A stretch of 64,000 nucleotides of DNA. Source: Corbicula japonica. Its lineage: Eukaryota > Mollusca > Bivalvia > Venerida > Cyrenidae. Both the position numbers and the translations under genes were made by a program. How positions within the stretch are numbered: the stretch's first letter is position 1; each line of letters starts with the position of its first letter. Shown here in pieces: positions 1 through 58,100 of this stretch. The notes beneath the pieces were generated by a model that ran no database searches, had not been told where the DNA came from, and worked only from the letters and a program-made list of their open reading frames with translations. Location of the stretch: the NCBI GenBank assembly GCA_038501625.1, contig JAZAYU010000002.1, positions 16,668,053 through 16,732,052 on the forward strand, written 5' to 3'.

Positions 1-189
1 ACGAAATACTTTTCGCAAAAGTTCTGACCAATAGAATTCACTCAAAATTTACCCAAATATTACTCAAAGATTTTTCTTTAAAAAACTCAAGAAAAATATA
101 GGACAGCTTGTTTGTTTTGGAAACAATACAAAATGTTTAAAACACGTACACATTCGCCGCAATGGCATTTTAAAATGTTTTATAGGTAA

Positions 190-394: not shown

Positions 395-499
395 TTATAC
401 TTTTATTAACGTTTAATTTTATATCTAGTTCTAGCATAACAAAGGTTTTGTACATAATTGCAGCTACATATTAGCCGAGCCTTTAGAAAAACGAATTAC

Positions 500-2149: not shown

Positions 2150-2640
2150 GTTATATGTAATTTTCGCATAATAATAATCTAAAGGTTTTAAAGTTTTATT
2201 TGTAATACAATTTATCATACTTGATCAAGGAATACTGTCTACATATCCAAAATAATTTAAATAACAATGTTCAATGTGACGCCCATTTTGTGTGATTATG
2301 TCAGACGTCAAGTCTTTTCTTGAAAAAATTCATCGCATATAAGACCTTTTACTTTGGGGGCATCTTAAAAGATAAGATTCAGACACCTAAACCAACATCA
2401 GTGCAATAGCTAAAAATCATATTTTCCATGAGAAATTAGAAAGATAAAGCCACACTTGTGCGGATCGGCCAAAGACAACTAGAGAAAAGACTTGACGTCA
2501 CAATATCCCATAATGGACGTCACATTTGTTATAAATATTATTTTAAATACACGTACAGCATTCCTTATTCAAGTATGGTATGTTATTTATCAAACAAAAC
2601 TTTAAAACCTCTAGATTAACACAATGTGAAAATTGAATGC
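2150..2640. mobile_element. Non-autonomous element with long terminal inverted repeats
   Basis: The outer ~165 bp on each side are imperfect inverted complements: about 2150-2320 against 2475-2640. Shared blocks include AGGTTTTAAAGTTTT with its complement and GACGTCAAGTCTTTTCT at 2302 with AGAAAAGACTTGACGTC at 2481. The spacer is about 160 bp and non-coding. It is absent from the equivalent place in the right duplicate, so it inserted after the duplication. Confidence 0.65.
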
Positions 2641-2910
2641 CTATGTTTGATGATAGTAACGCTATTATTTCAAAAGCGTATCAGATATTTTGTATCACTC
2701 TGTACGCATGCACTTTAAATATCAAAGTTGATCTGTGCAAGTTTTTAATTGATATGGCAAAATTTTTATGGTTAAAAATGGAAGATGGCACGATGGTTAT
2801 CAACAGTGAAGTGTTATATATTTATATTTTTAAATATTAATATATAAATTGTTCACTGTTACATTGACTGCTGACAAGTGTTCTCTTCAAAATCGAAGCA
2901 ATGAAAAACT

Positions 2911-3000
2911 AGTATATCGAGGGTTGCATGCAAGACTGTCGTAACTCCTTCTTTATTTCAATGTAGTTACGACAGTCTTGTGTGCAACCCTCGATATACT
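2911..3000. repeat. Hairpin-forming inverted repeat
   Basis: Arms of 35 bp begin AGTATATCGAGGGTTGCATG and end at TCGATATACT, separated by about 20 bp, with one or two mismatches. Probably a small foldback element. Confidence 0.8.
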
Positions 3001-3819
3001 CCACGTCAGTAGAACGCTGCTTCTTACGGTAATTACGACCAGCAGTGACTCACCTGTAACACATTGATAAAATATGAATGACTTCATATGAAATTAAAGT
3101 TTTACTTATGACGGAATTTGAAAGTATTACTATGATCAAGATCAGTAACACGCTATGGGTTTTTGCACCCTTAAACCTATTTTCGGTTTTCGGTCTTACT
3201 TTTCTGAAAAAGTAACATTTTAGGTGTTAACATATTTTCCCATTGTCGGTAATGCAAATTTTTTCCAGTTGATATTAATGTTTCTATAAAATGTTGAGCT
3301 TTGGAAATATGACAGCAGAAAAGCCTGATAAGACAGTAAGTTAACCGAGATTGCAAGTATGTACCAGTGCTACTTCGCTATACCTTATAGTTTAAATTTT
3401 AACAATGTAAAAAAGCTACGGTAAAATTGGTAATTTTCTCTTGGCGGTCAATATATAGTCAAATATATAGCGTATATTACGGGTAATTTAAAAAAGTAAC
3501 AGAAGGAGTATTAATCTTGGGAATTAAGGTAATGTGCACAGTTGTTATACATTTGTATTTGAGTTGTATTAAATATTTGGGTATTTTTAAAATTTATTTT
3601 AACATGGTGCTAGGCAGCGTTGGAAGTAATATGCATTTCCATAACTGACTCGAGTAACTAGAATGTAGAATAAATTTCATACGATAACACACTCGATGAA
3701 TAATCGGAATGTCGAGTCTGACACATATAATTTTCAAGAAATTGACCAGTCGTAAGAATATATACAACGCGTTGGAAACATGGAATGGTCGGCGACATGT
3801 CTCGAAAGAGACCGGCTGC

Positions 3820-4556
3820 TGGTCCAAAATGAGAACCCGAGAGGTAACCGCCTTGGAACGGTCAGTGACAAATCAAATTTTCACTGGGGGTTTAAACAAG
3901 GTTCTAGGGTTCACCAACCGCATACTTGCCCCAACAGGTTCTCAAATCAACACACAAGAACAAGTTGTCTTAGTGAAATAACTGCAACCTACCATCAGCT
4001 CAACAATGTTGCATGCAAAAGCACACAAACATATAAAACATTAGAAGCTAATAGTATTGCAAAGCCAAAGGGGCGGGTACTTTATGATCTAACCGAGACC
4101 AGAGCCCCTGGAGTAAAATCAGCAAGTACACGATGACAGGGATAAAAGAAACAAATCGAGCTTCTAGGTTCTTTTCAGAAAATATTTCCCCATAAACCGT
4201 CAAAAACCCCTAAACCCCTTCCACCGTCGTGCAATCAAAGAGGTAATCATAATGATCAACTGTAGATGGGTTAATCACCAAGCCTGCAGAGCGCTGTAAA
4301 ATATCATGTTGGTCAACCTTTCTTTTTTAAATTTGCAGATCGTTTTTACGAATAACCGGAAGAAATTAACATTGCATTTTATCTTCTTAAGTTTATAAAT
4401 TAAATCTCCATAAAAAACTGACTGTGAAATACCTTGTTACAATAGTGATTTAAAACTGCACCTGTATTTTGAATTAAATCTGGGTATCGGCGCTAAACTT
4501 GCAAAAGGTTTTCCTTAATTTGTGATACCGATAACCTTTTTTTAAAAGGTTGTCTG
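3820..4556 (-). mobile_element. LINE-family 3' fragment (copy 1)
   Basis: Reads right to left as the same sequence as 17180-17890: the end of a reverse-transcriptase-type ORF (decayed), then the 3' UTR with the CAGTGxxxA stem-loop region. It interrupts sequence that is continuous in the right-hand duplicate near 44800-44910, so it inserted after the gene duplication. Confidence 0.8.
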
Positions 4557-4939
4557 TTATGTATAGATAATGAACTTGACAAACTGATAATTAAGGTCAC
4601 CATGTTATTTTTTTCAGGAGTCGCACAAACCAGTATCGATAGTGTCTGTTCCAACTGCTACCTGTTCGTTGAAATGTTACATAAAATAATTTATTGTCTA
4701 AGTATAAAACAAGAATTTTAATATATAAATTAAATGTTTATAAGGTATGCTTGTATCAATCAGGAAATCTTAAGACAAATGATAGCACAGCATCAAAAGA
4801 ATATTAAATTAAAAAGGACAATGCATAAACACATTTAAAAAGCACAACTTTCTCTTTGTGCTTTGTATAACAATACAATTATAACAGTATTTTTGAAATT
4901 TGTAAAATAAACACGATAATTTTATTTTCACATCTCACC

Positions 4940-5215
4940 ATTAGTAAAACTGTAGTGGGTGCAATTCCTTAAGGAATCAATTACAGACTTGCCAGCACAT
5001 ATATTTGATTTTTAACCAAATTTTGAATCTTGTTGAAGCTTACTAAGCATGGCAGTGTGAAGATAAAAAATTTATTTTATGCTTTTCAGTGAATTATAGA
5101 ATTTTCCCGGTGAAATAAAAGTGGTATTTCAATGTTTTCAAACAGTGGAATATCATTTTTATTTTCACTGATTTTTCACGTTGGTACCCAAACGCAAATA
5201 ACATACCAAATTAGA
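4940..5215 (-). repeat. Dispersed repeat, family shared with 13375-13498
   Basis: The block containing AGTGAAAATAAAAATGATAT on the minus strand and the following ~130 bp recurs on the plus strand at 13375-13498. Copy number and element class cannot be judged from one window. Confidence 0.6.
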
Positions 5216-5219
5216 ACGT

Positions 5220-5740
5220 TTAGATACACTATCCGAACAGCTACCGTCCTAATCAGAGCTATCACTATCAGAATCGAGCATTCCTAGTCTTGCCTGTCCC
5301 ACATTAGCTCTTAGTTTATTATCAGACCTGAAACGAATATCGATAGTTTTTTGTGATTTGCCATTAACATTTTCCACAGCCGAAGAAGAAACAAAAATAG
5401 TAAATTTTTGCCTACCCTTTAACTTCTTGATATTGTCCGTCTCCTAGATTTTCTGGCACATTTCCTCTTTGCATTTCTGCTGTAACATCAACCGATCATC
5501 TTCCTTTACCCTACGATACTCCTCAAAACCTTCAACTCCTCATCCTAATAAACTTCGCCATAATCCGAATGTTTAGGTGAAAATATAGCACTATCTGAGG
5601 CCCTGCCTCCACACGCGCCGATTTGGGAACTTCTAACAATTGCGCCGATCCCAATTTCTTTGTATCTGACTCAGTAGTAGCACTCTTGAGGCTCCGTTTA
5701 GGTTCTTTTTAGACCCTCTTTATTACGGAGTCTATAATCA
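5220..5740 (-). pseudogene. Degraded ORF next to the dispersed repeat
   Basis: The minus strand has runs of codon-like, acidic/serine-rich sequence (for example GRASDSAIFSPKHSDYGEVY) broken by several stops, ending just before the repeat at 4940-5215. It resembles a decayed transposon ORF but no family was recognised. Low certainty. Confidence 0.3.
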
Positions 5741-5974
5741 ATATTCTCCCTTTGTCTCACTGACTTCGGCGTCGTTTAAACACTAACACCAAGCGCTATT
5801 ATAATAAAAGTTCAAACATTCCATGTTGATAACAATCACGAGATTCAGCTATGTTGACCTTCATCTTCACGAAAACCCGAATCTAATGTCCAATAGACTC
5901 TCTGCTACTTATAACTATTAAAACTGCTCCCAAAACCCACCGCCCACCAGTTATGTGTCACCAGCTGGGTGTCA

Positions 5975-6573
5975 CGGGTGGCTATTTAAAGTGTTTCTTA
6001 TAGCAGTCCTAAAACATCGTTGCTCGCAGACTGAAGGAAGAAAAAATGGAGGAATCGCGCGAGAACTGCTCTGTAAAACTACAACTGTACACGATTCTTA
6101 GTACACGATTTCTTTGCGACTACACAAGCAGTAATCAAAAATCTTTGTCGGGCCTACTATATGATAGCCTATCACTTTATATTAGAGCGGTTATCGGAAA
6201 AATACTGCACATTTTGATAAAAGCATGCAACTTTGCACAATTATTTTGCATGTCAGTTTTGCATTCAAAACATGTGATCTTAGATATGGAGGCATTTGTG
6301 GAAACACCTACTTCCGGTTTTATCCAAGATGACAGCATTTATGAGTAATTACATGACCCTGATAATTATATAATGTATTATTTTAAAAACAGCTCATGTG
6401 CAGACTGTCATTCAAAGATATATTTAAATTTTTATTTTCTGTTTTGATTTCAGTTGTGTGGATAGAATGCAATCATTCATTTGACAAATGTTGTATGACC
6501 CTCTGGGTGAAACAGAATAAAGGATGCCCACTTTGTAATCAGGGCAGGGTTGTACAACTTATCGGAAAATGAG
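5975..6573 (+). CDS. Putative RING-like zinc-finger fragment gene
   Basis: An ATG at 6046 opens a 100-codon ORF (MEESRENCSV...). A TATTTAAAG motif lies about 60 bp upstream. After an AG acceptor near 6450 a second open stretch reads VWIECNHSFDKCC ... WVKQNKGCPLC, the second half of a RING-H2 finger, ending at a stop near 6571. The fifth metal ligand position is D and not H/C, and the first C-x2-C pair is not convincingly visible, so this may be a decayed or partial RING gene, possibly transposon-derived. The exon joint is not resolved. Confidence 0.35.
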
Positions 6574-7030
6574 ACATGTCTCCTAAAGAGATTTATCATT
6601 TGTTGTCCATTAGTCAGTGAATCTGAGTGTAAGTGTAAAATGTTATATTTATTTATTTGACATACTGTGTGGATATTTTGAGGTGGATAATAAACAAAAC
6701 AATGAGAAATCTACAAGAGCAAAGTTCTGTTTGTTAAAACTTGTGGTGGAAAGCACCAACAAATTATGGTCTTAAGCTGTATATAATGTCAGTGACAGCT
6801 GAAGTTAAATGTTCATTTTGCTCCATAAGCCGTGAATGCGTTTATACATGTATTTGGTGTCATTTTGTGTGTGAAACGGACATACCAGATTTTGTTTATT
6901 TCATACTTGATGAAGACTTGCTGTTAAAAAGCGTAAACAAATTTTCTTAAATCTTTTGTGCTGCTTTCTGTACAAACTGTTTATTATTTCTAGCATAACA
7001 TTTTGTGGTTTTAAATAAAATAGTAAATCA

Positions 7031-7562
7031 ATGGGTTCTAAAATGGGTTTAAGAGTTTATGAAGGTTTTTGGGAAAATCTTTTCGTAAAAGAACATAGAA
7101 GCTCTATTTGTTTCTTTTATCCCTGTCATCGTGTTCTTGTTGATTTTACTCAAGGAGCTCTGGTCACGGTTAGATCATTGAGTACCCGCCCTTTGGCTTT
7201 GCAATGCTATTAGCTTTTTATGATTTATATGTTGTGTGCTTTTGCATGCAACATAATTGAGCCGATGGGTGGGTTGGAGTTTTTTCAACAAGCAAGACAA
7301 CTTGTACTTGTTTTGTGATATAAAAACCAGGTGGTACAAGTGTGAGGTTGGTGCACCCTAGAACCTGGTTTAACCCCCAAGTGGCAATGTGATTTGCCAC
7401 TGACCGTTCCAAGGGGGTAACCCCTCGGGTTCTCATTTTTGTTTTTGGTGTCTGTTTTGAAACTGATCATTTTAAAAACCATGCTATCTCCCTCTCTCTT
7501 CCTTTTGACTGTGTGGGGAGGCTGTTTTTTTTTTGAATGTGGCAATTCCTGATATGCATTTT
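7031..7562 (+). mobile_element. LINE-family 3' fragment (copy 2)
   Basis: Homologous to 17505-18005: the short stretch beginning GGTTTAAGAGTTTATGAAGG, then the 3' UTR including AAGTGGCAA...TTGCCACTG and a TCTC-rich tail. The protein-coding part is absent. Confidence 0.8.
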
Positions 7563-8401
7563 TCACCTTAAAGTTTTCTAAAAGTTATGTTTTTCAATTT
7601 TTCTGGAATTGCGTGCACAAAAAACTACAGGTGATTTTTATGTGCACCACTCGTTTTATTGTGATGGTACGGGGTGATAGCAGTTGCTCACAAAATTTAA
7701 CAAACGCAATTTACAATCACTTAAAGCGGCATTACTTTAATTTAACCCGCTCTTGTATGAAATATTATATGTATTTGGAACTATAGGCACAAATTTGCAG
7801 CATTAGTTCGGGCTAATAAAATTTTAATTCACTAAAATAAATTTGGTCCGCGCGACTAAAAGGGAAAGTAGGATTTCCGAAACGTCACAGAAATCGAGAT
7901 CGCAATGAAGTGGTCTCTCCGTCGGTGCTAAATATAGCTCCATTATATTTAGCTTCTTAAAAGTTCGTTAACGATAATTTAACAATATCATTGAATAACC
8001 CGTCTATAAGAAAGTATTCGATCGGACCTTTTGTGTTCTGTGAGAGAGTTTATATATTGGAGTCTATATGGACAATTATGATTTTTCAGTAGTATATTCT
8101 TACTTAAGTTTAGGGCTGGGGTTTTAAAATAACATGGTTGAGAAGATTATTTATTAAATGTTCAAAGAACTTTGATTTGGTAAAAGAAATCTGATCATTC
8201 ATAACATAATTTAGTAAATAACATAGGTACTTAAAATCCTTGTAATTTTATTAACTATCTTAGTACTTAGTAGATGCTTAAAATGTGATTTTGATGCACT
8301 GTATTTTAATGCTTACTTAAATAAAAATAATTACAAAAAATACCACAATCTCTTTAACGGCAAATGCAGTTCAATAGAACTTTGCACAATACATACTATT
8401 A

Positions 8402-8620
8402 ATGTATGTTTATTTCATATATATTAAAATGGATGAAAAGGGAATTTTAAAAGCCACGTTCGAACAGTTTGCTACGCTATTTTTTCGATATACCACTTTG
8501 CATTTTTGCAGCAACAAGCACTATCGCTGCCGCGCCTTCAATGTTAAAATAGATGAAACGGGAACTTTGAAGACTCTCGACCACGACAAATATGAAACTA
8601 TTGCAGGCTCGGATTGATTG
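8402..8620 (+). other. Short ORF of unknown origin
   Basis: A 71-codon open frame with Cys/His content (LHFCSNKHYRCRAFNVK). It might be the remnant of a zinc-binding domain such as FLYWCH, but too little is present to assign it. It adjoins a dispersed repeat and is probably part of a transposon relic. Confidence 0.15.
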
Positions 8621-8684
8621 AGCCTGTTTATGGGCAGTAATGGTAATGCTTATTCCTGCCCACACCGCTTAGCCCCGGGTTGAG

Positions 8685-9045
8685 CGCAACTCAATATTTA
8701 CACCAATTAACAGTACAATTTAGATCCATCCCAAACGATGGAGTGCATATGACGGTGAACGTGTAACCTTCAATGCGGTATTTTCAGATAAAACCCATTC
8801 CATGTTCAGCGGCGTATGGTCCCCAGTTAAAAGAATGGGTTTGCCCTAAACGAAAAAACAATGAGCGGAACTTAACAGAATAGAATTTCGACAGGGGTTC
8901 TTAGAATATAAATCCTGCATATCACAGACCACGCCAAAGGCAAAATTTTAAAAGCAGGAAGTATATCTTTAGGGGTGATTGAACAATATCCAAATTTATA
9001 TAAATTGCTGGGATATTGAAACCACGCATCTTTAAACTGGCCGAA
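8685..9045. repeat. Direct repeat copy A (~350 bp)
   Basis: Nearly collinear with 9660-10012: both contain CAGTACAATTT, GATCCATCCCAAAC, TTCCATGTT and GGTGATTGAACAATATCC in the same order. A partial third copy lies at 13500-13606. Family unknown. Confidence 0.75.
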
Positions 9046-9119
9046 ATATTTAAAACAAAAAGTAAATTTAGAAGTACTATAAACGCTACTGTGATAGCTT
9101 AAATCGCTCCTACGCGCCT

Positions 9120-9540
9120 GTATACATAATGGTTTAACTACTGCACACCACGAGGCAGAACTTCTGCAGGAAATTATATCAGCACTGAAAGGAAAGAATT
9201 TAACTGCACATAAAGATGTACACTACTGCACATTTAGATGTAACCAATGCACAGAATGATGCTCAGCCGGCAACTGCACGTAATAGTGCAACAACTGGAT
9301 ATAAAGATGTACCTACTGCACAATATGATGTTACTACTTTACAGTGTAACTACCGCACACCATGTAATTACTGCAAGAAATGACTTTTTACAACACATCA
9401 TTGTGTTATTATTGCACATTAAATTATGTTACTACAGCAGGTAATAGAACAAATTCTGCACATAAAGATGAACTATTGCACCGAATGATGTCTCAAAATT
9501 TCTTTTGCACATTATCAAAGAGTTACTATTACACACAAAA
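9120..9540. repeat. Degenerate ~20-bp minisatellite
   Basis: More than a dozen loosely conserved units around TACTGCACATAAAGATGTA occur between the two ~350-bp direct repeats. The short ORF at 9247-9444 is a by-product of the repeat. Confidence 0.6.
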
Positions 9541-9659
9541 ATGTAATTTCTAACCGTAATGATTCTTTCCAAATCTTGCCATAAACTTTTGTATTGCACT
9601 TTGAATATACGATTTTTTTCAAAAGACTTGTGTAATCAGAAATAGATGAAAAGGGAACT

Positions 9660-24200: not shown

Positions 24201-27200
24201 AATCCGAGATTGCTGTAAATTAACCTGTAACTCAGATCTTTTGCATGCATTGCTTATCCTTTTTTGTGCTAAATGACTTCCAAAACCACTTTTCGATTAG
24301 TCGTGAAAAGGGAAACAGAATAATATTTTTAAGTTATTTCATCATTGCTAGTTCCACTAGTTACACTGTGTGGGACGTTTAATCACTATACAACTTCGAT
24401 GACTACGAAAATGATTCAAACCACTAACAAACATGCACTTAGTGATTCTGCTTGTAAAATTAATAGATATTTGGTTTCAATCGCAGAGTGGTTTATGATT
24501 CCTAATCCAGTTGCCCAGATTCGATTCCCAGGCGAGGACGCTACCGAAGAATTACATCAGATCAGGATTAGACGAGTTCTGGTAAGAAGCCTAGAGATAC
24601 TAGATTGAAATCCAGCCACCCTCGCCGCCTGAAAACTAGCTAGTTCTGTGATTATAAATATTTTTTGATGATTGATATTCAAACAGGCCGTAAATTGCAA
24701 AAAGTAGTTGCGTATCTTGTTGATGGAACGTTCCTATGCAGTCCACAGGGAATCGGCACATAACTTTTTTTTTCCAATCCTCTCAATCTATGCTATAATA
24801 TACGACAAGGGATTTTAGTTACTGATTTCCCTATATAAATCCATTTGGACACGGGTCCGCAACACCGATCACCACGAGTAAATCACTGTTCCCACGACTT
24901 TTGAGCGGAAATCTTTGGTTTGGTTCGAAAGAGTGAGCATAAATGATTCTCTTATCACCAGTGGTCTCTCGAAAAGTGGCCTGTAGTTCGCAGCTTAAAC
25001 AACTTTATTTCATTTTCACTCAAAGTAGCTGAAAGTCAGCCATCATTGTTTTGGGTCACCGCTGATGTCTGATTGGCTCGCGTAAAAACCTCTACCGTAC
25101 TATTACGCAATGTCCCGGCCTGTAATATATTTAGAGCGTATGAAGAGGGAAACAGCCTCGTTTTAAAAACATCCGCTTAAAGTTCCGGTTGTAATACGCA
25201 AAATTCAAACATGAACCCCGAACAAAATATTGCTTTAGAAATCGCCATCGGAGGCCACAATTTGTTATTATTAGGTACTGCTGGAACTGGCAAGTCATTT
25301 ACAGTGTGTCAAATTTATAAAAGATTATCAGAAAATGGTAAACATGTTCAGATAACATGTTCAACAGGAATAGTGTGTTCTGTCTACCAGAAGAGAAACT
25401 TGCCAGCTTGTACAGTTCACAAATTTCTTGGTCTAAGTGATGGTCGTTTTGACCCACAAGAATTAAACGTGATACACAGAAGTGCCAAGAAATATGAATA
25501 TGTGTACCATAACTTGGATGAATGTGATTGCTTAATTGTTGATGAGTGTTCAATGCTGAGTGTGAGAACATTTACTTCAATTTTAGAAGTGTGTAAGCAA
25601 AAGAACAAACCTATTCAACTCATTTTTGTTGGTGATTTCTATCAACTACCCCCAGTATCAAATACACGGTATAATGATGATGGAACTTTCTGCTTTTGCA
25701 GTGATATTTTCCAAAGAGTGTTCCCGCATAAAGTTGTTTTGAAAGAAAATATTAGAGCTGAAAATCATCAACTTCTTAATTTGATATCTGAGGTTTTTGC
25801 TGGACAAATTTCAGCAGATGGAGAAGACTTTATCCGTAGTTTAAATAGGGCACTGCCATCAAGTGTTAACAGCATCAAATTGTTCTCGAAGCATGCACTG
25901 GTTGACGATTTTAACAGAACATGTGTTCTTAATTTCCCTGGTTCGTTATATGAATTTACAGCAAATGATTCAGGGGAAACTGCAGAATTACAGATGTTGT
26001 CCGTACCGAAAACACTTTGGTTAAAAGTAGGGTGTCCTGTATTACTGATACAAAATCTCTCGGACAAACTTGTAAATGGATTGGTAGGACATGTAATCAG
26101 TATTGAAGATGGGCCTGTTGTGAAGTTCGACGATATCAACATGACATTAAGCATTCCAAAGGTTAAGTTCTCGAGTAAGTAAATTTTTATGTTAAAAAGG
26201 TTCTTGCAATCTGGGAAATAAGGGGAAATCAGATTGGCAACAGATACATATTGGTTGAAAGTTTCTCTCTAATGCATGATATTAGACATGTGAAATTACT
26301 TAGATTTGAAATGATGAACATTGCAATTGCATAACCAGTGTTGTTCATTTTTTGTTCAAAATTTTAATCTCTAACTTTAAAGAAGATATTTCATGAAAAA
26401 CTCCTATGTGTATATTTGTATAATCATGCCACCAAATCCGGGTTTGACTGACATTGAACACACTTGGTTCTACATACCATATATTGTTTAGTTTTCAGTC
26501 CTTCACAGAACAGAGACATTGCTGTACGTGAGCAGTATCCTTTAAAGGCAGCGTTTTCGCTTACCATTCACAAGGCGCAGGGCATGACATTAGAGAGGTA
26601 TAATTATATGAACTGTAATCCAACCTGCTTTAGCTGTCAGCTACATTAAGCAAACACATGCCTTTTACAGCCAGCCTGTACATAATTTTGCAAATTAACA
26701 TTTTCACCTTTTGTAAAAAACCATCTTTGTTAAGCAACCACTTCTTACCGGGCTGCTTGATGCAGGTTTTAATAATATATAGCCACTCTTTATCTTTTGT
26801 TATTTGAATGACTGTTTTTAATCAGTAATTAATATTGAATAAAAGATTTGACCAAAAGTTTAATCCATTAGTTTTTTACAGTTTCTAGTATTAAAGAACA
26901 CAAGAATTTAAAATGCATGGAATTGATGTATAATTATTACAAGTAAAGAAGATTAAAGAAAAATGAAGATTCTTATTATAAGCAATATAATAAGTACTTG
27001 TAAATTAAAAATTTTCATATATAATATTTCAGTGTTGAAGTGGACTGCAGAGAAATATTTAGGCCAGGCCAGCTGGGTGTGGCACTGTCAAGAGCAACCT
27101 CGCCCCAAGGACTACGTGTTATCAATTACCATCCTCGCTATGTTATGAAACCCTCACCACAGGTTACGGAATTCATGGTCAAGCCAACAGAGGATATTTT

Positions 27201-30200
27201 AACAGATATGACATGCTGTATGACATGGTCAAGGTATGAATAGTATTCAACACAATTACAGCTCTTTTTTTAGAAACCAGTTAACTGTTATTATCACTCC
27301 ACAAAAGTCTTTATAAGTAACAGCAGTGAAGTAATAACTGACTCCCAAGGCTTTTCAAAGGATTACTTAGCATTAAAAAGGATTAATGTCTTAACGTAAG
27401 GCTTCTGTATACAGAAATGATTACCTCGGCAATAAGCATCTTGCCTGCTGATCATGGTCTACACTGGTCATATGCTAAATGTCAGCATTCTAAAGGTTAA
27501 ATTGACTTGCGTATCTGTTGTGTCCTCATCAGCACAACTCATCAGCTCAACTCATATAGCTTTAACTAGGTCAACTGCTGTTTTTATCTTCCAGCATCAT
27601 TGAGGAACATGTTTCTGTAGGAGCTGCAAGGCAGACAGAGCTTGGTGATGATTCTTGCCTCCCTGAAAAAGAAAGGTATGAACATTCTGTAAAGGTGACT
27701 TTTAGGTTTTAAGAATCCATTTAACCCATTACTCCATGGGATATGCAAACAATTGTAGATCCAGATAATCAATCACGTCCGGATAAGGATAAGGATCTAC
27801 ACTGTTAACTTTAAGATTAATTAGGTTATCTCTGACCAACAAGCAACAAGTGTAGGTCCAAGTCAGATTACACAATATATGAACTTAGTTGACTTAAATG
27901 CAATTAACATAATAATAAGTATGTTTACATAAGGCAATACTTATTTCAACACTCTTAAGATAAGTTTTGAGGATTTAATTCTTACCTTTACAGTCTAATA
28001 ACTTTTATCTTGCTGTCTGCCTGTGCCTTATCTGATATTTTCCTTTTTCGAATTGGACTTCTCATATGGACGGCGAACGGTTTCGACATAGAACTTGATT
28101 TAGCTGCATTTGCTTTCTTGGACAGTACATTTTGTCCAACAATAATGCTGTTAATTGTTTTTTTGTATTGATATGCATTAGGATTTGTATTAGCTCCGTT
28201 ATATGTGGAGCGCTGTTGATTAAAAATGTTCTCAATTATGTCTGAGTTAACAAGACCAGGTGTCACAAATACAGTGTGACTAAGTTTCAGAACATGCTCA
28301 CACAGTGCAAGAAAGCCAGCAATACTGGAGTGAATATCCTCATGACATTGGGAAGACATTAAACATTGTGACTTTTGTTTGCTAGATAAAGTGGAGTCAT
28401 CCTCAATATATTTTTCCCAATCTGCAAACCATGAATTTACAGCCCTCAGAGTATTCAGTCTTGAATCATTAATGCCTGTGATAGGTCTCATGTCTCTAAA
28501 AATTGTCACAAGATTGGATGTTTGTTGCAACAGCTCTACGAGACCACTTAACACAATTCCTTTTTCTCCGAGACTCAGCTGATATACCTGCATAGCGTGA
28601 AGCATTTCACAGTTGAGAACATCTTCTGCTAAGTAGTTTCGCATTTTCAGTTGTTTGTCGGGATAGATATGTTCATGTGTCAACTTTCTATGGAGTTTCA
28701 AACCATTTTGTTGATCCCAATTATAAAAATCAACGAACATTTGCCAGTGTATTTGATATTTACTGGGCAATGTTAGTAACCTTGTTGAGTGTTTCAGGAT
28801 TCCACTCTTCATTATATTGTTTCTGATCTTTTTCAGTGTATGTGAAATGTCCATCATTAAAATGAGAGGCTGAGATGTGCATGGGCTGGGTGTAACAAAT
28901 GTTGCAGGTTTCTTGCCTAAACATATATGCATAAAATTTCGATTACATTGTGCCCCATCCATGCACGTAAATAAAACTTTGAAGCCAAATGTGAACAAAA
29001 TTCTCACAGCTTTCCAAAATATGCTATACAGTTCTGATGCTTGAATTGAGTCTGTCACAAAATGGGCAAACGGAAATCTGAAGCCGTTTATACCAAGAAA
29101 TAGTAATTGGAGTACATGTGTTCCTAGAACTTTGTTTCTTGAACCTTTTCTGAGTTGATTGCACATGTTTCCCTCGTCATCAAGTTCCGAAAATCCAGAG
29201 ATTTCAAGCACATCTCCATTTTTTTCTAGCTGGATGTCTTGCTGGATGCTCATTTCATCAAAAATGATGCCTCCTATTTTTTCATCTTCTGTCATCTCTC
29301 GACGACTGGCTTCGTCATACATCCATTTGATGACGGACATATCAAACCCTGGATCCTGCTTTAAGGCATTCTTATACAAAATAAGAACTGACTTCGATGG
29401 TAACACCAACATTTTACTTTCGCACATCAATTCGTAGCATTTTGGACTGCGGTTAAACAGTTGTAAGCAAATGGAGATAAAATCCTTTGACCATCTCCTA
29501 CCTTTAGGGTGGCGATTGACATTCTTCACCTGCTCTAATAGCATAGCGATCATTTCACTTGGTGCTGCAGGGAAAAGTTCCTTTAAAGTGTCAGCTTTAC
29601 TTTTATTCTCAGGAATTACATCATGGTCTGGTTGGTTTTCTTTCCCCTTATTGGAGCTCTTAAAGTAAAAAGTCATTTTCTGACAAACCCTGCATGTTCC
29701 AGCTTTGCAATTAAATGGCAGAATTTGAAGACAAGACACATGCCTGAGTGACTTAACAGTTTTCCCATTACATGTCCAGTTTTCAATGGTGTGGAACCTG
29801 CTAACAGTAATGGATTTATTAACTTCCATTCCAGAACATAAAATTAACTTGTCTGCTATAGCAAAGACAGATGAGACACTGCTTGCACTCATCTGATATT
29901 TTGAATCCACACCAATCTGGTCAAGAGACATTACTTTGCCACCAATCAATACTTCAAAAGTGCCATTTTTCTTGAAGGAGATGGTTTTTACAACACAATT
30001 TCCATTAGAAATGAAGTCACTGTCTTGCTGAAACTCTAGCTTGTCATTACTGTTTGATTTTAAAGTACAGTTTGAAGGTTTGACTTTAACAATGTCTTCA
30101 AATTCAATCTGTTCTTCACTTGTGTTTATAAGTGGCTTCAGCTTTATTCCTCTATAAACAGTGTCAAAAACTTTACCAACCCTCTTTCTAGCATGCTTAA

Positions 30201-33200
30201 TGTTTGGAAACAAACATTTAAGAGTGTCAATAAAAGAGTTCTTTGTTGCAATATTGACGAGATTCTTTTGAGAAGACTCAATGCATTCAAATCTGTACGA
30301 GTTGTAGAGGAGATTGATTTCTACTTCACCAAGCTCTTCAGACTCAAGTCTGGATAGAATCCTAAAATAATGTAAAAAATCCCATAATGAGCAATCTAGC
30401 AATGTAGTGAGCAAATGAGCATACCGTAAAACTCCTTTTAAATGCCCCCTCCCCTAGTATTTTTTTGAAAAGGGTTGGCTTATTTATTTATATAAATTAT
30501 TTTTATGTTAATATTCAATTCTAAATGATATAAGATAAAAGCTATAAGAATAATCCATTTTTGCCTAAACATAACATGGAGGAGTTTAGGGGGGGGGGGG
30601 GGCATTTATGAGTAGTTTTACGGTATTGATAAAATAAAATAGATTGACTGACCAAATGACTGGTTGACTGACAGACTTACTGAATGAATAAGTGAGTGAG
30701 TGAGTGAGTGAGTGAGTGAGTGAGTGAGTGAGTGAGTGAGTGAGTGAGTGAGTGAGTGAGATAAACAAAAATAAATATTACTTATTCAACCAATATATCT
30801 AAAAATAAGAAGATGACTGACTGACATAAAAATATTATTAAATAAATTGCTAAAACAATAAATAAAAAATATTTCTATTTTATGAAATATGGAAAATCAA
30901 AATATTAATCTGATTTTCAGTGAATCTGATGTTACACTGGATCCCGCAATAACTCAGGAAATTGAACTTGAGGAAGGTTGGGAGGATGAACTTGAGGATG
31001 AATTCAATGATGTCTTATCATCTATAATTGCTGAAGAAGAAAAGGCTGAAAATTTTGAAATTCCTGAAGGATTTATTCTTGAAGACCTTAGAAAAAGTCT
31101 GCTGATTGAAGAAGAAATCACACCATCACACAGACACATTAATGAAATAGTTTCTAGAATGAATGAAAAAAAGTTTACAAGCTTTGTTAAAAAGTTGCTT
31201 TTAAAAATGTCAGTTTTTATTAAGACCATATTAGGAACAGATTCTGAGGAAGAAGTTAGGAAGGGAATCACTGAAAAAAATCTATCTCAATTCTACCATC
31301 TTTTTCATATGTACAGTACCGGCAGTGAATATAAACTTGCATGTCTGTCATGTTTTGAAAGTGAGGGTTCATTCACGGATGACCACAGTATAGTTTGTTA
31401 CCAGATACTAGAATATGTTCGAATTTTTTATATAAGGCAGAAAGTGCAGCTCCTTCAAGTTGGTGGAGGTGGGGTATTGAGAAGATATGTTACAGATGCC
31501 TCCAAGGCAAGAGTACGTTATGTTGCCGGATATTGCATAGCAAAGCTGAGGAATAAATATGTGAAAAAGCAAAAAGCGAACATGTATTTGGTGGGAAAAG
31601 AAGGACAAGAAGTCTATTTGGAATCGAAATGTAAAGTGAACATACTTAACACATTGAAAGAAGAGGAGGAGTTCTTAAGTGAAAATTGTGTTGAACCAGA
31701 TTCCTTAATAGATATAAAAAGAAAACAAAACATTAGACATGGACTAACAAATGTGGCAGACAGTACATATGCATTTTTTATTTCTCTAACTGAAATTTCC
31801 TTAAGTGTTGTAATAAATGAAAATCTTGTTACATATGGAAAAGATATGTATAAACACTGCTACCATGATATTTATACCAACAGTGAACTTTATGAGCAAT
31901 TTTGCAGCCTTGTGACAAACAGACTATCAGCAGAAAGAAATGAAGATTTTAACTCAAATACACATGAAAACTTTGCTATTTCCAACTTTATGCAGAATTT
32001 AGTTTTAATAAGTTCTCAGATTCATGAACTATTCCAAGAAATTATCAAAAAGTATTTAAATGTGCTCCTAGCCCAGTTCAGAAAAGATGTTAAGTCTGCA
32101 AGTAAAATAGAAAAAAAAATGGCTCATAGGAAACAAATCAAGGTCTCACAAAAGGTGAAAACAAAATCTAAAAAGAGTACTGGGGCAAGTGATACAATTT
32201 CCCACAAAAAACAAAGACAAAGTAATGTAGTCACACATGAAACCGGAATAGAGGATGCTTTAACTCGGTCTTCATACACTGCTTCAGTATCCCCTCAACC
32301 ACCAATGGCAATGTCAAGACCTCCATTGAGTGATATACATTCTGATCCTGTGCCAGGACCATCTGGTATCCAGAATATACAGTCATCAGGGTTATTAGAT
32401 GACAACCAGTCAACAGAACCAAGTCCAGATAAACTCCAAGATGATTTGTGTAAGAAATGTTTAACTGAAAAAAATGATGACTGGATCCAGTGTGACTCTT
32501 GCAGTGCATGGTTTCATAGAAAGTGTTCAGGAATTAAAACTAAGAAACAGTGGGCTAAATTTTCGAAAGATGGAGTCAGTTGGTTTTGTATAGAGTGCCA
32601 GTAGAATGTTTTTGTATTTTTACAGTTCACATAATTTGTACAGCTGCTGGTATGACTTCACTTTGAACCTACCTGCTAACAAACTTTTTAAAAATGTGGT
32701 GTACTGCAATTGACAGAATTCGTGCCAATCATGTTACCCTGTGTTAATAGATCTGTAAAAAATGTTATCTCAGACAAAATGATGACTGAATCCAGAGTGA
32801 ATCTTCCTATGCATGGCTCCAAAGGTGTGCATGAATTGAAACTAGAAAACATTGTGCTAGGCCTATGAGTCCGTTTTCAGTGTAACTGGTATCATAGTAT
32901 TTTGATATCTTTACTATTCACATGACTAAGGCAAATATTGTGACTTTTACTAATATACAGTACATTTGCTGGCACTACTTTACTTTGAACTTACCAATTT
33001 ATAATCATATTTGCAAAAGTCAACTTTTGATTTTGGCGCACTTGCAATGTTTATAAATGTTATGGTGCCCTGCATATACGTTTATAGATTAAAAAACTGG
33101 GAACCACTTACCTTGTTTGACGGTATGGTGTTGACTTTTTCATTAGCCAATGAGATTTATTGATTCTTTACACACCCCCAACATCCAAAATGGCTTCCAG

Positions 33201-36200
33201 CAGTAGAAAATCCAGTGAAATAGAGAAAAGTTGTTTGTAGCTCGAGCAATAGGCCACTTTGCGAGAGACCACTGGCGGTAAGAGAATATTTTATGTTCAC
33301 TATTTCGAACCAAACCAATGATTTCCGCTCAAAAGTCGTGGGAACAGTGATTTACTCGTGGTGATCGGTGTTGCGGACCCGTGTCCAAATGGATTTATAT
33401 AGGGAAATCAGTAACTAAAACCCCTTGTCGTATATTATAGTATAGATTGAGAGGATTGGGAAAAAAGTTATGTGCCGATTCCCTGTGATGCAGTCCAGCG
33501 CCTGTGTTTTAAATGATAAACTGAGCGCCGCACAGTATGTATGCCTGTCACCCATACACGACCCTGGTAGGCATCGAACTCACAACGGTGAGGAGCAAGT
33601 TATTCTAGGTCGGAGACCTTAACCTTTTTTTTTCTTTCCACACAAATAGGCATCGGTAGTGGTAATCCCTGAAGCTTGGATCAATTCCGTCTAATTGCGG
33701 TCAAAATACCTGCACGTACGGACGCATGCACGGACGGGTGCCATTACTCCTCCGATGCCTATCGATGGAGATAATTGAGTGTACCATAGAGGTTTGGGTC
33801 GGGGGTCCTTATTCTATAGGGGGTCACATTTCTACGTGAGGGGTCATTTTTCTACGTGTGAGGAGTCATAATATTATGACCCCCCCCCCCCCAGTCATAA
33901 TATTATGACCGCGGAGTCAATATTTTATATAAAATAATGACCGGGGGGTCATTATTCTATGGGGGTCACTTTACAACGTTACACCGGCCCTGGCAAACAA
34001 CCCTACGAAAGCTTGCCGATTAGCTACGTCACGTAAAATTATTCCTGGAGGAGCCAAACCTGTACGGTGAATGACATGCAAAGTTCTTAAGCACTATGCC
34101 ACAAAGGCCCTTAGAGACGACATACACTTGATCAACATGCTGTTCATGGATATACTCCCGACTTACCTGTTACGTACGGCGGTCCTTCGAGTTTAACAAC
34201 CTCAGTGGAACCAAACACAAGATCAGCAGCCAAGAAGGCTATCGCGCCCCAAGCTGCTGCATAGGAGAACCTGTTTGACTTGCCGAGAATGTCCATTGGG
34301 CTGCATTGAGACAAAGCATATTAACTAAATATATACTCAACAAAAAAAGAAACCTGACACTGTAACTTTGAATAAGTATGAGGTGCATATTCAAAATCTA
34401 TATATTTTTGCACCATCCAAAAGAAAATAACCACTGAATCACTTGTTTCATGCACCAAAAATATCAAAATGCATAATTAAGTTCAAAACATGCACAATTT
34501 TTATTACATACCACAATTCAATTAGCTTTAAATCTGATTCCAGGAAAATACACCGATATAAAGTGTCAGGTTTCTATTTTTGTTGAGTATATTTAAACGA
34601 AAATCATTGGTTCATATTATTGCCAGATAAGAATTTCTGCTACTGAGCCAATTATTAATTTTTCTACTTTGCATTGAATTAAAATATGAATTTCTATCGC
34701 AAATTCTAATTATTAAATGTCTATCTGATAACATTCAGTTGGGTTCAATATATTCTGATTCTTAATGAAAAACCCAGTCCGGATAACATTATACTAAAAT
34801 ATTTTGCCTGTAGGAAGAGTTCAGAATGTCTGTCTGTAAAGCATCATGATCATTGCAGGTTTTAAACAAACGTTCCTACTTCATAATAGACACCTTGCAG
34901 TTAACAAAAGTATGGTACACATAAACTGTTTATATTATATTGCTTACAACACAGCACCCGGACGACCCCAGAAACATGTTAACCATTTGTTTTTCCTCGA
35001 CATGGTACACGCTAATAACAACATCATAGCGAACTGAAGTGGAAGAATGATAAACATGTATGGGAATAAGAAAAAATGAAATATAAAATTCAAAAGTATA
35101 AGATTGAATCATAGTCTGACGAAGTAAACAGTAATGTTGCATAAAGCTCCGTAGAATTCAAGCAAAACAATAAGAAAACAGAAATCATGAATAAAAATAA
35201 GAAAAGTGTATGGCATCAGTTCACAAAGAAAGCAGTATAGAAGCATTCGAGCGCAAAATTAGGAAAACAGTAGAACTGAATTAGAACACCGTAGACTTGA
35301 ATAAGAAAACAGTATACATGAAAAAGAAACGTTTAAGACATAAAAAAAGTAAAAAAAAAAGGTGAAAATAAGCATATCAGGAATCGTCACACTCACAAAA
35401 CACAGCTTCCTCACGCAGCGAAAAAGGAGAGAGGAAAAGAGAGCATAATGAGAGTATGTCAAATGTCAAATTCAAATAAGACGCCACAAACAATTAACGA
35501 AAAGTGAACCCTTGGGGTTATCGCTTCGGAATGGTCATTGGCAAAACAAATTGCCACTGGGGTTTAAACCAGGTTCTCGGGTGCACCAACCTCACACTTG
35601 TCCCAACAGGTTCTCATATCACAAAACAAGTACAGATTTCCCTATAAACATTCATAAACTCTTAAACCCCTGACACTGTCGTGCAACCAAAACGGTAAGC
35701 AAAATGATCAACTGTAGATGAGTTAATCACTACGTAAAGTAGCATTTAAGCACAAAAATAAGAAATTAGTAGACATGAATAAGACAACAATAGACATGAA
35801 AAAGACAACAGAAAAGTATATGGCATGAAAAAGAAAACGGTACATTAGCATTCAAGCACAATAACAAGAAAACAGTAAAGTAACATTCAAGCACAAGAAT
35901 AAGTAAACTGTAGAAATGAATAGGAAAAGATACAAATAAACAACACAACAGTAGACATAAAAAAGAAAACAGTAGACAAGAATTATACACAGTTATTAAG
36001 TATACAATGAAGAGATATGAAACATTTAAGTCAGCGAAAAAAACAACGCAACATTTAATGTCATTAATAAGAAAACAATAATGTAATATCGAGTTCTAGC
36101 TCGGGTCGCGAAGCGACCCGAGCGTTAAGCTCGTCTTAAGGTCGCAGGAATGCCCATTCACTAGCTAAAAAAACGATGTCCTTCCGTTTGCTCTGGTTAC

Positions 36201-39200: not shown

Positions 39201-42200
39201 CAGAAAACTGGAAGTTGCACTCGTAATAAAAACAATGATTTTTTTTTCTTTTTTATGTTTTTGTTTTAGCAATTGTAACAGTAGATAAGTTTACATTTTT
39301 TAATATATGGTACTTTTTAAAGAGAAATTTACCTATTTTAAAGTAGTTTTGCCTACATTTCTGCAAGGAAAAATACAAAATCAACAATATACCAACTGGA
39401 ATGAGCTTCAGAATTTGAAATTCACATTTTCCAGTATATATTACATTTATAAAATACTTACCAGACAGAGATCCAAAAGTGTTTATGAATAATGGCATTT
39501 TTATTGCTAAATGATGTGTTCATTTTTGCAAACAATAATCTCTTTACATTGTTATTATACATTTTAAAAAATGGACCAACAACAGTTTAAATTCATGATT
39601 TGATTGGCAACTGCAATTCATTTATGTAATGAAAATAGATATAAAGAAGCATTTTGTAACAAATCAGTTACTAAGACCTGTAAAGGATAATCAGACTACA
39701 TGACATTGTACATGTTTATGTTTAATTGATTGAGATTATTTCATCTATTTTGGCCCAATAGCTGAACTATTTTTCAACTTAAATAAGTAATTCTATCATG
39801 CACATTCAAGTAACTTAGTTCAAATATGTACCTTATTGTCACCAAATATGTATCATATTGTCACAATATTTTTCACACAGCATCTATAGCTTCAAATTAC
39901 TGTTGTTAATAACTGAAAATTCATATGTCATTGTCATTCCTGGAGATATTTTCAAATGACTTTGCACAAATATACCCCAAAATCTAGGTGATGTATCACA
40001 CTACATATTGAAGTCTCAATGTGGTGTTAATGTGATGTACATGGATATTAAAACGGTACTTTTTAGGTCTAGATTATAACTTTATTCATATACATGCATA
40101 TATATTTTTTGAATAGCATGGGACAATTTTGTGCAATTGCAAGTTATAAATGCAAGTGTAATCAAGGTAACATTTTAAAAAATAAAATTTATTTTTCAGA
40201 CAATAATATATTAATTTTCATGCACATGTGACAATGTGACATAATATTTAGAAATTACATGTATCAATGAAGAATTTATCAATATTCAATATTGCATTAA
40301 TTGAGGTAATGGAAAAGATTTGGGTTGTAAATTTAAGCAAGAAGCCTTAATGTTTGTGTTTACACATTAAAAACCCAAATGTTTAGTAAAAGTCAGATTG
40401 CCAGTTGTCCAGCTGAATTAAGTTGATGTAGACTTAAATTCTTTCCAAAAATCACATAATGTTATCGTGCATGAGTAGGCTAACAAATGTTAGAAACAAA
40501 TTATTTTTAATATAAATCATTATCCGAGATTATTAAAGCTATTATACAAGCACGGGAACTAGTAAATATATAGTAATTCAAGACTCGAGCAAAAAGAAAG
40601 GTTTTGTGTGTTCACTCTCAAAATGTTAGGAAAACATCAAGCATTCAGATTCTAAAATATATTAATTATGTATACATAAAACTCTCTATTTTTTAATTCA
40701 AAAGTGATATGTTTGACTGTACAATTATGCTTTTAGCATGAAATACTTACTGAAGGAAATAAAACGTCCAGTTTGACAATAGGATATTTAATACAAAACC
40801 GAGATACGGTCAAAGAATGCGAATGTACAAAAGAAAAATGATCTTAAGTTTAAATTTTCTAAAACATTTATTAATGCCGCTATAACATGTCAGGATATCT
40901 TAACCCTTTACACCAGTGCCCAAGGTTATAAAACTGAGCACGGAAACCAGTCTCAAATCTCAAGCATCTGATTGGCTGAAATGGCGACTGGTCGCCATTT
41001 CAGCCAATCAGATGCTTGAGATTTGAGACTGGTTTACAAACTCAGTTTTATAACCTTCACCCCAGGAAATATGGTTGTTATCCAGTTGACGAACAGTTTA
41101 GATCAAGATCAACCGGCACATACGCATCAGGATTAGGATCTACACTGTTCGCTGTGTTAGATTTATTAGTTAAGTTCTGATCCAGAAGCGATCAGTGTAG
41201 ATCCAGATCAGACACACGTGATAATGTAACATTATCTATTGTTTTTATGTAGCAAAGGGTTTAACTTTATTAACATTTGCTTTTACATCAAGTTTTGTTG
41301 TACTGTCTTCTCCTCGATGCTTTCTTACTTCTCCTTGCACAATGTGCAACGATGCCGTCTTACATTACTAGCAAAACACGGGGTTTCGTACAGCTACAGA
41401 TGAGCCGAGCCATTAGAAAAATGACTTACCGATGGCAAAAGAAGATACAGATGAAATGGTGATGTTGGGACCTTGGTGATGCACACAGGCCTGTCACTGA
41501 AAATACAACTGTGTCGTTGTTTGGCTTTCCCGAAGTAGAAATAATATAAGAACCATGTTATATCATACTTTTTCGTGCAACATTACTATCTTACTCTCCC
41601 TTTCAACAATGTGAAACAATGGCATTTTACTTTTCCGTGCATAATGTGCAACGATGCTGTCTTAAGTTTGAAGTTCGCATTAAGCAACAGCGCTATCTTA
41701 CTTTTCCGTGCATAATGTGCAACGATGCTGTCTTAAGTTTGAAGTTCGCATTAAGCAACAGCGCTATCTTACTTTTCCGTGCACAATGTGCAACGATGCT
41801 GTCTTACTTTTCCGTGCATAATGTGCAACAACAATGTCTTACTTTTCCGTGCATAATGTGCAACAACCATGTCTTACTTTTCCGTACCCGCAATGTGCAA
41901 TATATTATATTTATCGAACTGCTCAGAAACGTGTAATAGCTAGATCACTTACGTGTATCGATTAATCTATTTATAACATAATATTTGTTCATCGAAAGTT
42001 TAATTTAGAAGTCTGGGATCGAGAGCAAATCTCTAGAGACTATTCGCGACATGTTTATAATTTCGTTCAAACGTTTGTACTTCATTACAGCAACTAAAGA
42101 ACAAAAGCAAACAGCGCTTTTATTAATGTTTTCTATTATTTGCTAACAAAAAAAACACTTACTCTGCTGTACTGTTTCCATTATTCCATGTCCCTTTTAC

Positions 42201-55100: not shown

Positions 55101-58100
55101 GTACATGAGTCTTCACTTCTTATTGAGAACAAAGTCTGTTTTTATCATTTATAATTCAAAGGATATGCAGCTCACTGTCTTCTCAATGTCATTTCTAGTA
55201 AGTACATTTATAGCTGCAGGGGTTTTCCTAGCCTTTCTGAGGGTCCTGAAAATGGACCCTTTCCTAAAGCAAACAGACTCTTTCCCAATCCGAAATTTCT
55301 TCCATTTTTCCCAATTGAATCCACAGATAATTTTCAAGACATAAGAAACAGTGTTAACTTCCAATTGTTGTAAACAACTTACTGCTTTATCTCCCACTAT
55401 GCATGTGACGTCACAACCAGGTCTAAAATCTGGTGCATACGGTATACAATTATGTGTCTGTATGGAGAACAGTTTGTCGAGATACCAGTCCCTGCCGAGA
55501 AAATGGACATTCCGTTCCATTCAAAGAAGTTTCAACCGAATAAAATTGATCGGAGTTAATAGGCGATTTGGAGTAAAAAAATCATTCATTTTTGTGATAT
55601 TAACACTAATATGTTACCGAGTATGGCCTCTCATAATAGCAAATACTACGCAAAAAAAATTCGTAAACAGGATTCAAAAGGCTGTTAGTCAATTGTTGAC
55701 CTTTGCAAGAAATGGCAACAAAAAATACTGAACAAGAAACATCAAAACATCAACCGAAATCTGGACAAACAAAGCAACACGAGGGTGTTAGTGTTTGCTT
55801 GTCTGAAAGCAGTAGAAAACAAAGAAAAATTCTGTTATAGTCATTTGTTGACTTCAACAAATTAAAATTATTCCATACCTTGAGTTTTTTTCTAAACAAA
55901 CCTGTAGGTTTTAAACATATAGGTTTTAAACACTAAGCCACCCTGAGTGAATAAAAAGTAAACTGATCCTTCGTTGTAGAAGTTTAAAAAAGGGGGAAAA
56001 ATGCATAAAACAATGATTTTAAAATTCCAAAAACCTGTATTTTTGTCGATAAAAATTCCCAAAATGAGACGTTTCATGCGCTAAAATTTTCCCAAATCTG
56101 GCCAGGGTCCTTTTCCCAAAATGGCTAGGAAAACCCGTCAGCTGCTGTAAGCACTTCTCATCACTTTTCCTTGCAAATACAGCTGTCTTTACTTCTAATT
56201 ATTCCACTTGAAGTTGATTACAGCTTTCTTTATTTCACATACAGCTGTCTTCATATGAGTCTCTCATCCCTTCTTATTTATGGAAATCAGCAAAATTAGT
56301 CTTTTGATTACGGTCACTGTCATCGTAATTTGACACACGCATGCTGCTAATAAAGAACGATTCTGATTATTCCTACGAAATTCAACTTGTTCGCCTTGGA
56401 AAACTGAGCTAGCCCACGGACAAGTGACCAGTAAATTTGAGATTGTCCGATTCGATTTTCGGCTTGTCCCGGGCGTCGAGCTAGTGGGTTTGTCCAGCCC
56501 TGTTACCGCACTGGTAAATTGTTGTTCTTTTTACTGTATTGGCCTAGGCACAACCCAAAGTGAGATGAGTCTCTCACAGTTATTTAAATTCAAAATAGCA
56601 TTGTATTCGAACTACATGTATTGTGAATTTTGGCCCCCAAGTTACTGATTTGAATGCTAACTTGCTTACCATCCAAACAGATTCAAAAAGAATCTAGTTA
56701 AAATGAAACAACTCAATTTACACATTTCATATTTGATTTAGCGATATATTCTCTTATCCGATATGCAAATGGCCGATAAAATTTACATTGAGTATATTAT
56801 AGGAAATGGTTTGGTGTTTGCTGACATATTCTTATAGCCGATACCCGATTTTGTTGAGTCTACTATATAATAGATATTAACATTTGTACATGTAGAACAT
56901 TTAGTAACATGTAAAATTCTACTTTTTGGTTACAGAAGAAGAGCTGTGGGAGCATAGAAGACAAGCCAAACACGAGCCTCGGGAACCCAGACCATTTCCT
57001 ACAGAGAAACTCAAACAAACACCAGAAGAACTGCTGAAAATGGGTCAGCTACAGTGTAGCTTCTGTTTCCACTTCTACCTGAACAAGAGGTCCCTGAGAC
57101 GACATACTGTGAACGTACACAGGAAATGGTTGCTGTGGAACTGTGCTGTCTGTTTTGAAGGATTTAAGTCCAGTAAGTAAGGGAACCCTCAGGGTTTTCA
57201 ATAGCTTTTAACCCTTTCCTCCATATTATATACACTTTAATTAATCATCGCCATGCCGTCTGATCAAGATCTAAACTGTTCACTTTCTGATTTGTTAGGT
57301 TATCTCTGGCCAAAATGCAACCAGTGCAGATCCTGATTAGACGGGATGGATGTGCCGGCTGATCAGGATCTGCACTGGTCACTCATGCGTAAAAATGCAT
57401 ATTTATGGAGGAAAGGTTTGAAAATCCAGGAGTCATTCATTGTACCCTATTTGAGAATATTCAGAGGGTCATAATAAGGTCATCATGAGTCATGCATTGT
57501 ATCCGTTGTCTTATCATTTCTGTAAATCTATTTAACTTTAGCACCCTCAGGGTTTTCAATAGCTTTTGTTAATCAGGGCCTGTGGTCGTTTAACTTAAAT
57601 TGGAGACCAGTCTCAAATCTCAAGCATCAGATTGGCTGAATTGGGGACATGTGTGGTACCACACACATGCTTATGTGAGGTTGCGTCATTAAATTTTTTA
57701 TGCGATGTACAGCCAATCCTGTGCTAAAGACCACCTGTAAAGAAAGACCACCTGTCGACAAAGATCATGCTTTATTTGTCCCATGGACTGATTTAAAGAA
57801 GAAATTTACCTGTGAACAAAGACCACCTTCCTTTAAAGACCACTTTTGGGTTCTCCCCTGAGTGGTCTTTGTAGACAGGTTTGACTGTATTCAATATACT
57901 GATATTATTTAGAAAAATTATATTTTCTTTATGCTAAGAGTTCAGCCTATTGAAACATAATTTAGATTGTATTCTTAACTTATACAAAATTCTAAACAAT
58001 AAAAGGTATGCAAGAAAAGGTATCTAGAAAAATCTGTTACCTTGCCATGGGTAAACAGTTTTTGCAGGAACTCAGTCAAACTTTGTTTTCATGACTGAAG

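Follow-up and report, generated by a model that had tools for sequence, protein, structure and literature searches.

Introduction

The classic transposon of animals is the P element, which has been described with a single THAP transposase gene. The RepHel protein of Helitrons carries a PIF1-type helicase together with a rolling-circle enzyme, and these elements have neither terminal inverted repeats (TIRs) nor target-site duplications (TSDs). RAG1/RAG2 and ProtoRAG consist of a DDE enzyme and an opposite-strand partner protein with a PHD finger; their core is of the Transib type, their TSDs are 5 base pairs (bp) long, and the kelch-PHD partner has no helicase. In the available part of PMC7776569 one transposase is named for the P element, and the parts listed there include neither a helicase nor a PHD gene. 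Excerpts of three further papers report a helicase domain in Helitrons (PMC6431247), a DNA transposon with its own helicase gene, AcademH (PMC10045372), and an accessory helicase gene in KolobokH and Kolobok-1_CCri, in one case on the complementary strand (PMC9587614, from which the term PHD is absent). Here we describe an element in a stretch of 64,000 nucleotides of the clam Corbicula japonica (contig JAZAYU010000002.1, forward strand, 16,668,053 to 16,732,052; assembly GCA_038501625.1), referred to as the window. It is very probably a P-superfamily transposon that moves by cut and paste and is, or until recently was, autonomous, and it belongs to a two-gene lineage in which a transposase with an RFX fold and a P-type core is accompanied by a PIF1-PHD protein.

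Results

The element occupies positions 24744-33487 of the window (8744 bp). An inverted-repeat alignment placed the left TIR, with the tip CACAGGG, at 24744-25020 on the + strand and the right TIR, with the tip CCCTGTG, at 33214-33487 on the - strand; the two are 91.7% identical over 278 columns and perfect over the outermost 27 bp. A word search of the window found the 8-bp TSD ATGCAGTC abutting both ends, at 24736-24743 and 33488-33495, with no further occurrence on the + strand. The precise CACAGGG-tipped TIRs of about 270 bp and the perfect 8-bp TSD claimed in the first-pass annotation of this DNA were thus confirmed, and the lack of TIRs and TSDs that is the hallmark of Helitrons is not seen here, the window element having both.

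The same 1.07 Gb genome was searched with the left end, the transposase and the PHD part. The left end gave at least 72 matches (40 of 209 candidates scored). Thirty-six loci were fetched around TIR matches, and 11 of them without a complete end pair were excluded; both ends were present in the other 25, spaced 526-1460 bp apart. The 8-bp TSD was perfect in 20 of these 25 two-ended loci, and the tips CACAGGG and CCCTGTG occurred together in 19. The imperfect TSDs had one mismatch (L033, L043, L045), two (L027) or six (L037), and an additional perfect pair was found for L005/L008. Loci L039 and L040 lie on the same contig and have identical TSDs, so that they may go back to a single insertion that was duplicated. 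Since the genome copies repeat the perfect 8-bp TSDs and the tips, the element ends are not due to chance. The short TIR-bounded copies showed no match to any element protein.

Three large coding regions lie inside the element: a helicase exon on the + strand, a transposase frame on the - strand and a PHD frame on the + strand. The open reading frame (ORF) of the helicase exon runs from 25181 to 26182 and that of the PHD part from 30886 to 32604 (572 amino acids). Taking the helicase ORF as a complete gene was rejected, because it ends ahead of motif V; motifs V and VI fall in two short downstream frames, and these next two exons finish the helicase. In the predicted splicing, exon 1 (25211-26174) encodes a PIF1-type helicase with Walker A, Walker B and motif III, exon 2 (26492-26597, joined in phase at GT-AG sites) motif V, LTIHKAQGMTL, and exon 3 (27033-27233) motif VI and the end of the helicase. 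Intron 3 (27234-30920, 3687 bp) encloses the antisense transposase exon, and exon 4 (30921-32604) encodes an acidic linker, a helical region and the C-terminal PHD finger with the stop codon. Joining the four exons at GT-AG sites gives a single unbroken protein of 984 amino acids, which aligns end to end with the 989-amino-acid homologue P0041 of Mercenaria mercenaria at 50% identity (505 of 1010 columns). The three-gene system of the first-pass annotation therefore had to be revised: the helicase and PHD parts seem to be exons belonging to a single gene, here called gene B, which would make two transcription units and not three.

Pfam matched the window helicase to PIF1 (4.6e-15) and Pif1_2B (1.2e-06), and the helicase motifs are present. 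The PHD finger is supported by profile and fold matches, and a profile search against PDB sequences matched the C-terminal PHD part of gene B (among the 60 of 69 matches listed). A fold search of gene B gave no clear match beyond the PHD finger, which excludes nothing, and Pfam found no other family widely common to 22 gene B members among the 25 of 33 families listed. The helical region of exon 4 is conserved, with an RVRYVAGY motif, and the relatives' copy of it is labelled PF27108; profile and fold searches gave no support to the idea that it is the C-terminal domain of P transposases in a displaced position. About 170 bp past the PHD stop, positions 32776-32824 repeat a part of the PHD coding sequence, 32471-32519, in degenerate form (82%).

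Gene A, the transposase, has an ORF on the - strand at 27988-30453, an 821-amino-acid frame with a P-type RNase H signature. Its main exon covers 27988-30361, the ORF remaining open to 30453 and the acceptor being placed by eye at about 30362. The exon encodes an RFX-type winged helix, a beta-rich domain and an RNase H core with a putative GTP-binding-type insertion. The Pfam family TNP-like_RNaseH_N was matched by all 29 transposase members, and D399, D499 and E741 (numbering of the 821-amino-acid ORF), which would correspond to the catalytic D-D-E residues of the P element, are invariant in all 29 and present in the window. TNP-like_GBD was matched by 9 of the 29; the window scores 22.9 bits, below the cutoff of 24.8, and its putative insertion region falls inside the range of the 6p5a alignment. 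Assignment to the P superfamily, as the first-pass annotation had it, stands on the RNase H transposase core, on the TIRs and on the 8-bp TSDs of the window, of the 20 pairs among 25, of L005/L008 and of two further families, L076 and L077, described below.

The RFX DNA-binding fold, unmentioned in the earlier annotation, was found by fold search at the N-terminal side of the transposase. In this model the predicted fold takes the position that THAP has in a P transposase. That the main exon encodes a THAP domain was rejected by the Pfam results and by a scan for the C2CH pattern: THAP is absent from the families matched by the 29 members, and the pattern did not occur in the 1.7-2.8 kb upstream in any of 13 chosen loci, the first exon being unplaced. 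The beta-rich stretch, at about residues 118-258 of the ORF, separates the RFX fold from the catalytic core and has four invariant cysteines (C206, C241, C254, C257). On the 5' side of the transposase, within intron 3, a piece resembling a miniature inverted-repeat transposable element (MITE) with 34-bp inverted arms (30421-30626) lies beside a GTGA microsatellite. Alignments to a second large copy, on contig C45, run through this piece, which probably makes it older than either copy. One short non-coding segment, 27748-27867, recurs at two places outside the element in the window, 41092-41212 and 57262-57333, and is perhaps a piece of a short interspersed element or MITE.

The C45 copy is colinear with the window element over 1-8701 at 88-93% identity, and its three coding regions agree with those of the window in order and strand. 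It is disrupted by a long terminal repeat retrotransposon (identified by eye), a 1-kb insert, frameshifts and stops; at its right end the final ~43 bp are unaligned and no TSD was found. The ratio of nonsynonymous to synonymous substitution (dN/dS) between window and C45 is 0.25 for the helicase, 0.40 for the PHD exon and 0.46 for the transposase, values that make these parts look conserved, although it must be borne in mind that the C45 copy is dead. The dS values against the same copy (C45:5032400-5051560; L029, L009) are 0.24, 0.11 and 0.07, respectively, a gene-by-gene difference as if the two copies were mosaics or had been gene-converted. The C45 copy likewise yields a second weak PHD match.

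At least 67 genomic matches were obtained with the transposase (55 of 224 candidates scored). Thirty transposase loci were inspected with about 1.5 kb on each side; the window is one of them, and L056 and L059 are pieces of the C45 copy. Pieces of helicase-PHD stand beside the transposase in 25 of the 30, always on the opposite strand. The helicase part is downstream of the transposase in 18 loci, with the helicase N-terminus also in L072, and the PHD part is upstream in 11 and downstream in 4; no such pieces occur within about 1.5 kb in L056, L067, L068, L071 and L073. The same protein queries gave zero matches in 37 control records (129,106 bases).

For the PHD part there were at least 90 matches (76 of 309 candidates scored). 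When matches on the same strand with gaps of up to 3.5 kb were clustered and a pairing distance of 10 kb was used, 38 of 45 transposase clusters had a PHD cluster nearby, the strands being opposite in all 38; random placement would give an expected 0.045 pairs. Some of the 38 have equal scores and may be duplicates, so not all are independent. Seven of the 45 transposase clusters and 16 of the 54 PHD clusters were unpaired. Twenty-nine pairs show the window's arrangement, with the PHD part upstream of the transposase, and in 9 it is downstream. The downstream pairs, mostly of more distant families, include C772, C1266, C82, C119, C131, C177, C23 and C86; in C772 (L074, L078, L079) the layout is convergent and the transposase is not nested in the helicase-PHD gene. 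This downstream or convergent layout may be the older arrangement.

Two further complete families were recognized. L076 (contig C211) is 8939 bp long, with TIRs of ~700 bp that are 99% identical and the TSD GTAGTTAG; L077 (contig C9) is 9410 bp long, with TIRs of ~437 bp that are 99.8% identical and the TSD AACTTGAT. Both start with CACAGG. For L077 the outermost pair of ends, 221-9630, with a non-palindromic TSD, was chosen over inner candidates with palindromic words. The near-identity of the TIRs suggests recent movement. Predicted splicing with three introns gives helicase-PHD proteins of 968 amino acids in L076 and 967 in L077. Introns 1 and 2 are at sites homologous to those of the window, and intron 3, in the unconserved linker, measures 3114 bp and 4401 bp, respectively, and holds an antisense transposase open without stops (815 and 820 amino acids). 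Junction 3 of L076 has a better-looking alternative, CAG|GTAAGG to TTTCAG, also in phase; the 968 amino acids refer to the first candidate.

Among homologues in other organisms, 20 helicase-PHD proteins were hand-picked from 120 listed, and 17 of them have the helicase, the RYVAGY region and the PHD in one protein; a PHD segment was not seen in P0066, P0068 and P0078. Where a source is named, helicase-PHD homologues belong to the bivalves Mercenaria, Mya, Dreissena, Argopecten, Saccostrea, Ruditapes, Mytilus and Pinctada, and transposase homologues to Dreissena, to a snail, Littorina, and to a hemichordate, Ptychodera. The transposase and PHD homologue lists have three contig sizes in common (10961, 6280 and 920231), which suggests that these are the same contigs. 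In trees the window transposase groups with P0001 (90/86) and P0003, and its PHD part falls in an open group of seven rows including P0052 and P0041; P0001 and P0052 sit on contigs of equal size, which is weak evidence. The collections of viral contigs and genome contigs yielded no confirmed relative. Helicase-PHD pieces P0055 and P0082 are filed under metagenome-assembled genomes of Candidatus Thiodiazotropha and most likely represent DNA of the bivalve host that was binned with its symbiont.

Discussion

With dozens of related copies keeping both, the helicase-PHD gene and the transposase seem to form a lasting mobile pair that did not come about by accident. That an ordinary P-type element captured helicase and PHD sequences by chance might be thought from the named P-element parts, which include neither gene in the available part of PMC7776569, and the intron does contain MITE-like and simple-repeat pieces. 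Against this one-off nesting stand the 38 linked clusters of 45, every pair antisense, the four-exon plan common to three divergent families, the fused homologous proteins of other bivalves and the contigs sized alike in both homologue lists. Because the pair is linked in other genome copies, chance nesting was rejected, and we give it next to no credence. The first-pass annotation held that copies lacking helicase or PHD would mark the trio as a one-off nesting; this was checked in part, the short copies and the 7 unlinked clusters pointing that way and the 38 linked ones to the contrary. Its view that helicase and PHD belong to the mobile unit, in a lineage, is upheld by the C45 copy, the 25 of 30 loci, L076/L077 and the 38 clusters. 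Three separate genes, with own transcripts for helicase, transposase and PHD, would be in keeping with the ATG of the PHD ORF (~30889), which lies upstream of the splice acceptor used here, and with the many PHD-only database homologues, some of which may be unspliced genomic frames. However, the GT-AG junctions, which keep the frame in the window, in L076 and in L077, the continuous helicase-PHD proteins on short contigs (e.g., P0050, P0063, P0075) and the end-to-end alignment of P0041 with the joined product make separate genes rather improbable.

Gene B could also be a regulator or host-interaction gene, for example one countering silencing, its helicase activity being dispensable for movement. 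Fly P elements move without such a gene, and a single transposase is named in the accessible part of PMC7776569. Yet the helicase motifs are present in the window, the helicase dN/dS is 0.25, and linkage across deep divergence suggests need, so we regard a purely regulatory role as unlikely, though less so than three genes. A larger doubt, and a distinct possibility, is that the lineage is already catalogued with this gene set under the P superfamily in Repbase or Dfam. Both hold many bivalve elements, and helicase-bearing lineages are named in Academ and Kolobok in the excerpts cited. On the other side, full-text searches of open-access papers listed none on a P-type element with helicase or PHD, in agreement with the first-pass claim of an undescribed combination; Repbase and Dfam lay outside this search, and an entry may exist there.

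For the two-gene P-type element, the proposed mechanism starts from what was read directly: the TIRs, the 8-bp TSDs, the conserved D-D-E, the in-phase exons of the prediction, the layout across families and the genome-wide linkage. Gene A would encode a P-core DDE transposase whose RFX-type winged helix probably binds sites in the long TIRs and which would make 8-bp staggered insertions as the P element does. Gene B would encode one protein of ~970-985 amino acids, in which a PIF1-type helicase is followed by an acidic linker, a helical domain that is conserved, and a PHD finger; its last intron contains gene A in antisense orientation, both in the window and in the nearer relatives. The PHD finger may bind methylated lysine 4 of histone H3 (H3K4) and so steer the complex to open chromatin, and the helicase may remodel DNA at excision or insertion, or aid copying of the element back at the donor gap. 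In Drosophila the donor-gap work is done by host repair factors including the Bloom helicase. Aid in excision repair and chromatin targeting, the roles that the first-pass annotation gave to the helicase and PHD proteins, are likewise inferred. It is possible, though we hold it only tentatively, that this is a two-protein machine in which the PIF1-PHD protein is obligate to the RFX-type transposase, choosing targets by reading methylated H3K4 and unwinding DNA for excision repair or insertion. It would then be a second, independent origin of the RAG1/RAG2 plan, a DDE recombinase with a PHD partner encoded on the opposite strand, and the nested antisense arrangement would balance the two products. 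A lineage found in several bivalves that combines a swapped DNA-binding domain with a helicase fused to a histone-reader-like finger makes two questions testable: by what means P-type elements select their targets in chromatin, and for what reason certain DNA transposons carry their own helicase.

In comparison with the Drosophila P element and THAP9, the window transposase has an RFX winged helix and no THAP was seen, and the present lineage has a second gene, helicase-PHD; its TIRs are ~0.27-0.7 kb long against 31 bp in the Drosophila P element, and its length is 8.7-9.4 kb against 2.9 kb. AcademH is alike in having its own helicase gene (available part of PMC10045372) and differs in its 9-10-bp TSDs and a transposase of another superfamily. 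The helicase of KolobokH and Kolobok-1_CCri is of the RecQ type, whereas that described here is PIF1, and their transposase is Kolobok; as judged from the sequence, the P core and the 8-bp TSD speak against membership in Academ or Kolobok. Helicases in DNA transposons were thus known already from AcademH, KolobokH and Kolobok-1_CCri, and what would be new is a P-type element with a PIF1-PHD partner gene. Helitron RepHel resembles it in bringing a helicase, also of PIF1 type, into a DNA transposon, and differs by the rolling-circle enzyme and the lack of TIRs and TSDs. RAG1/RAG2 and ProtoRAG share the DDE enzyme with a PHD partner on the other strand, and RAG structures are distant fold matches of the window transposase; they differ in the Transib-type core, the 5-bp TSDs and a kelch-PHD partner without helicase. 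With its parallel to the PHD of RAG2, the lineage adds a separate example to comparisons of how chromatin reading arose in recombinases.
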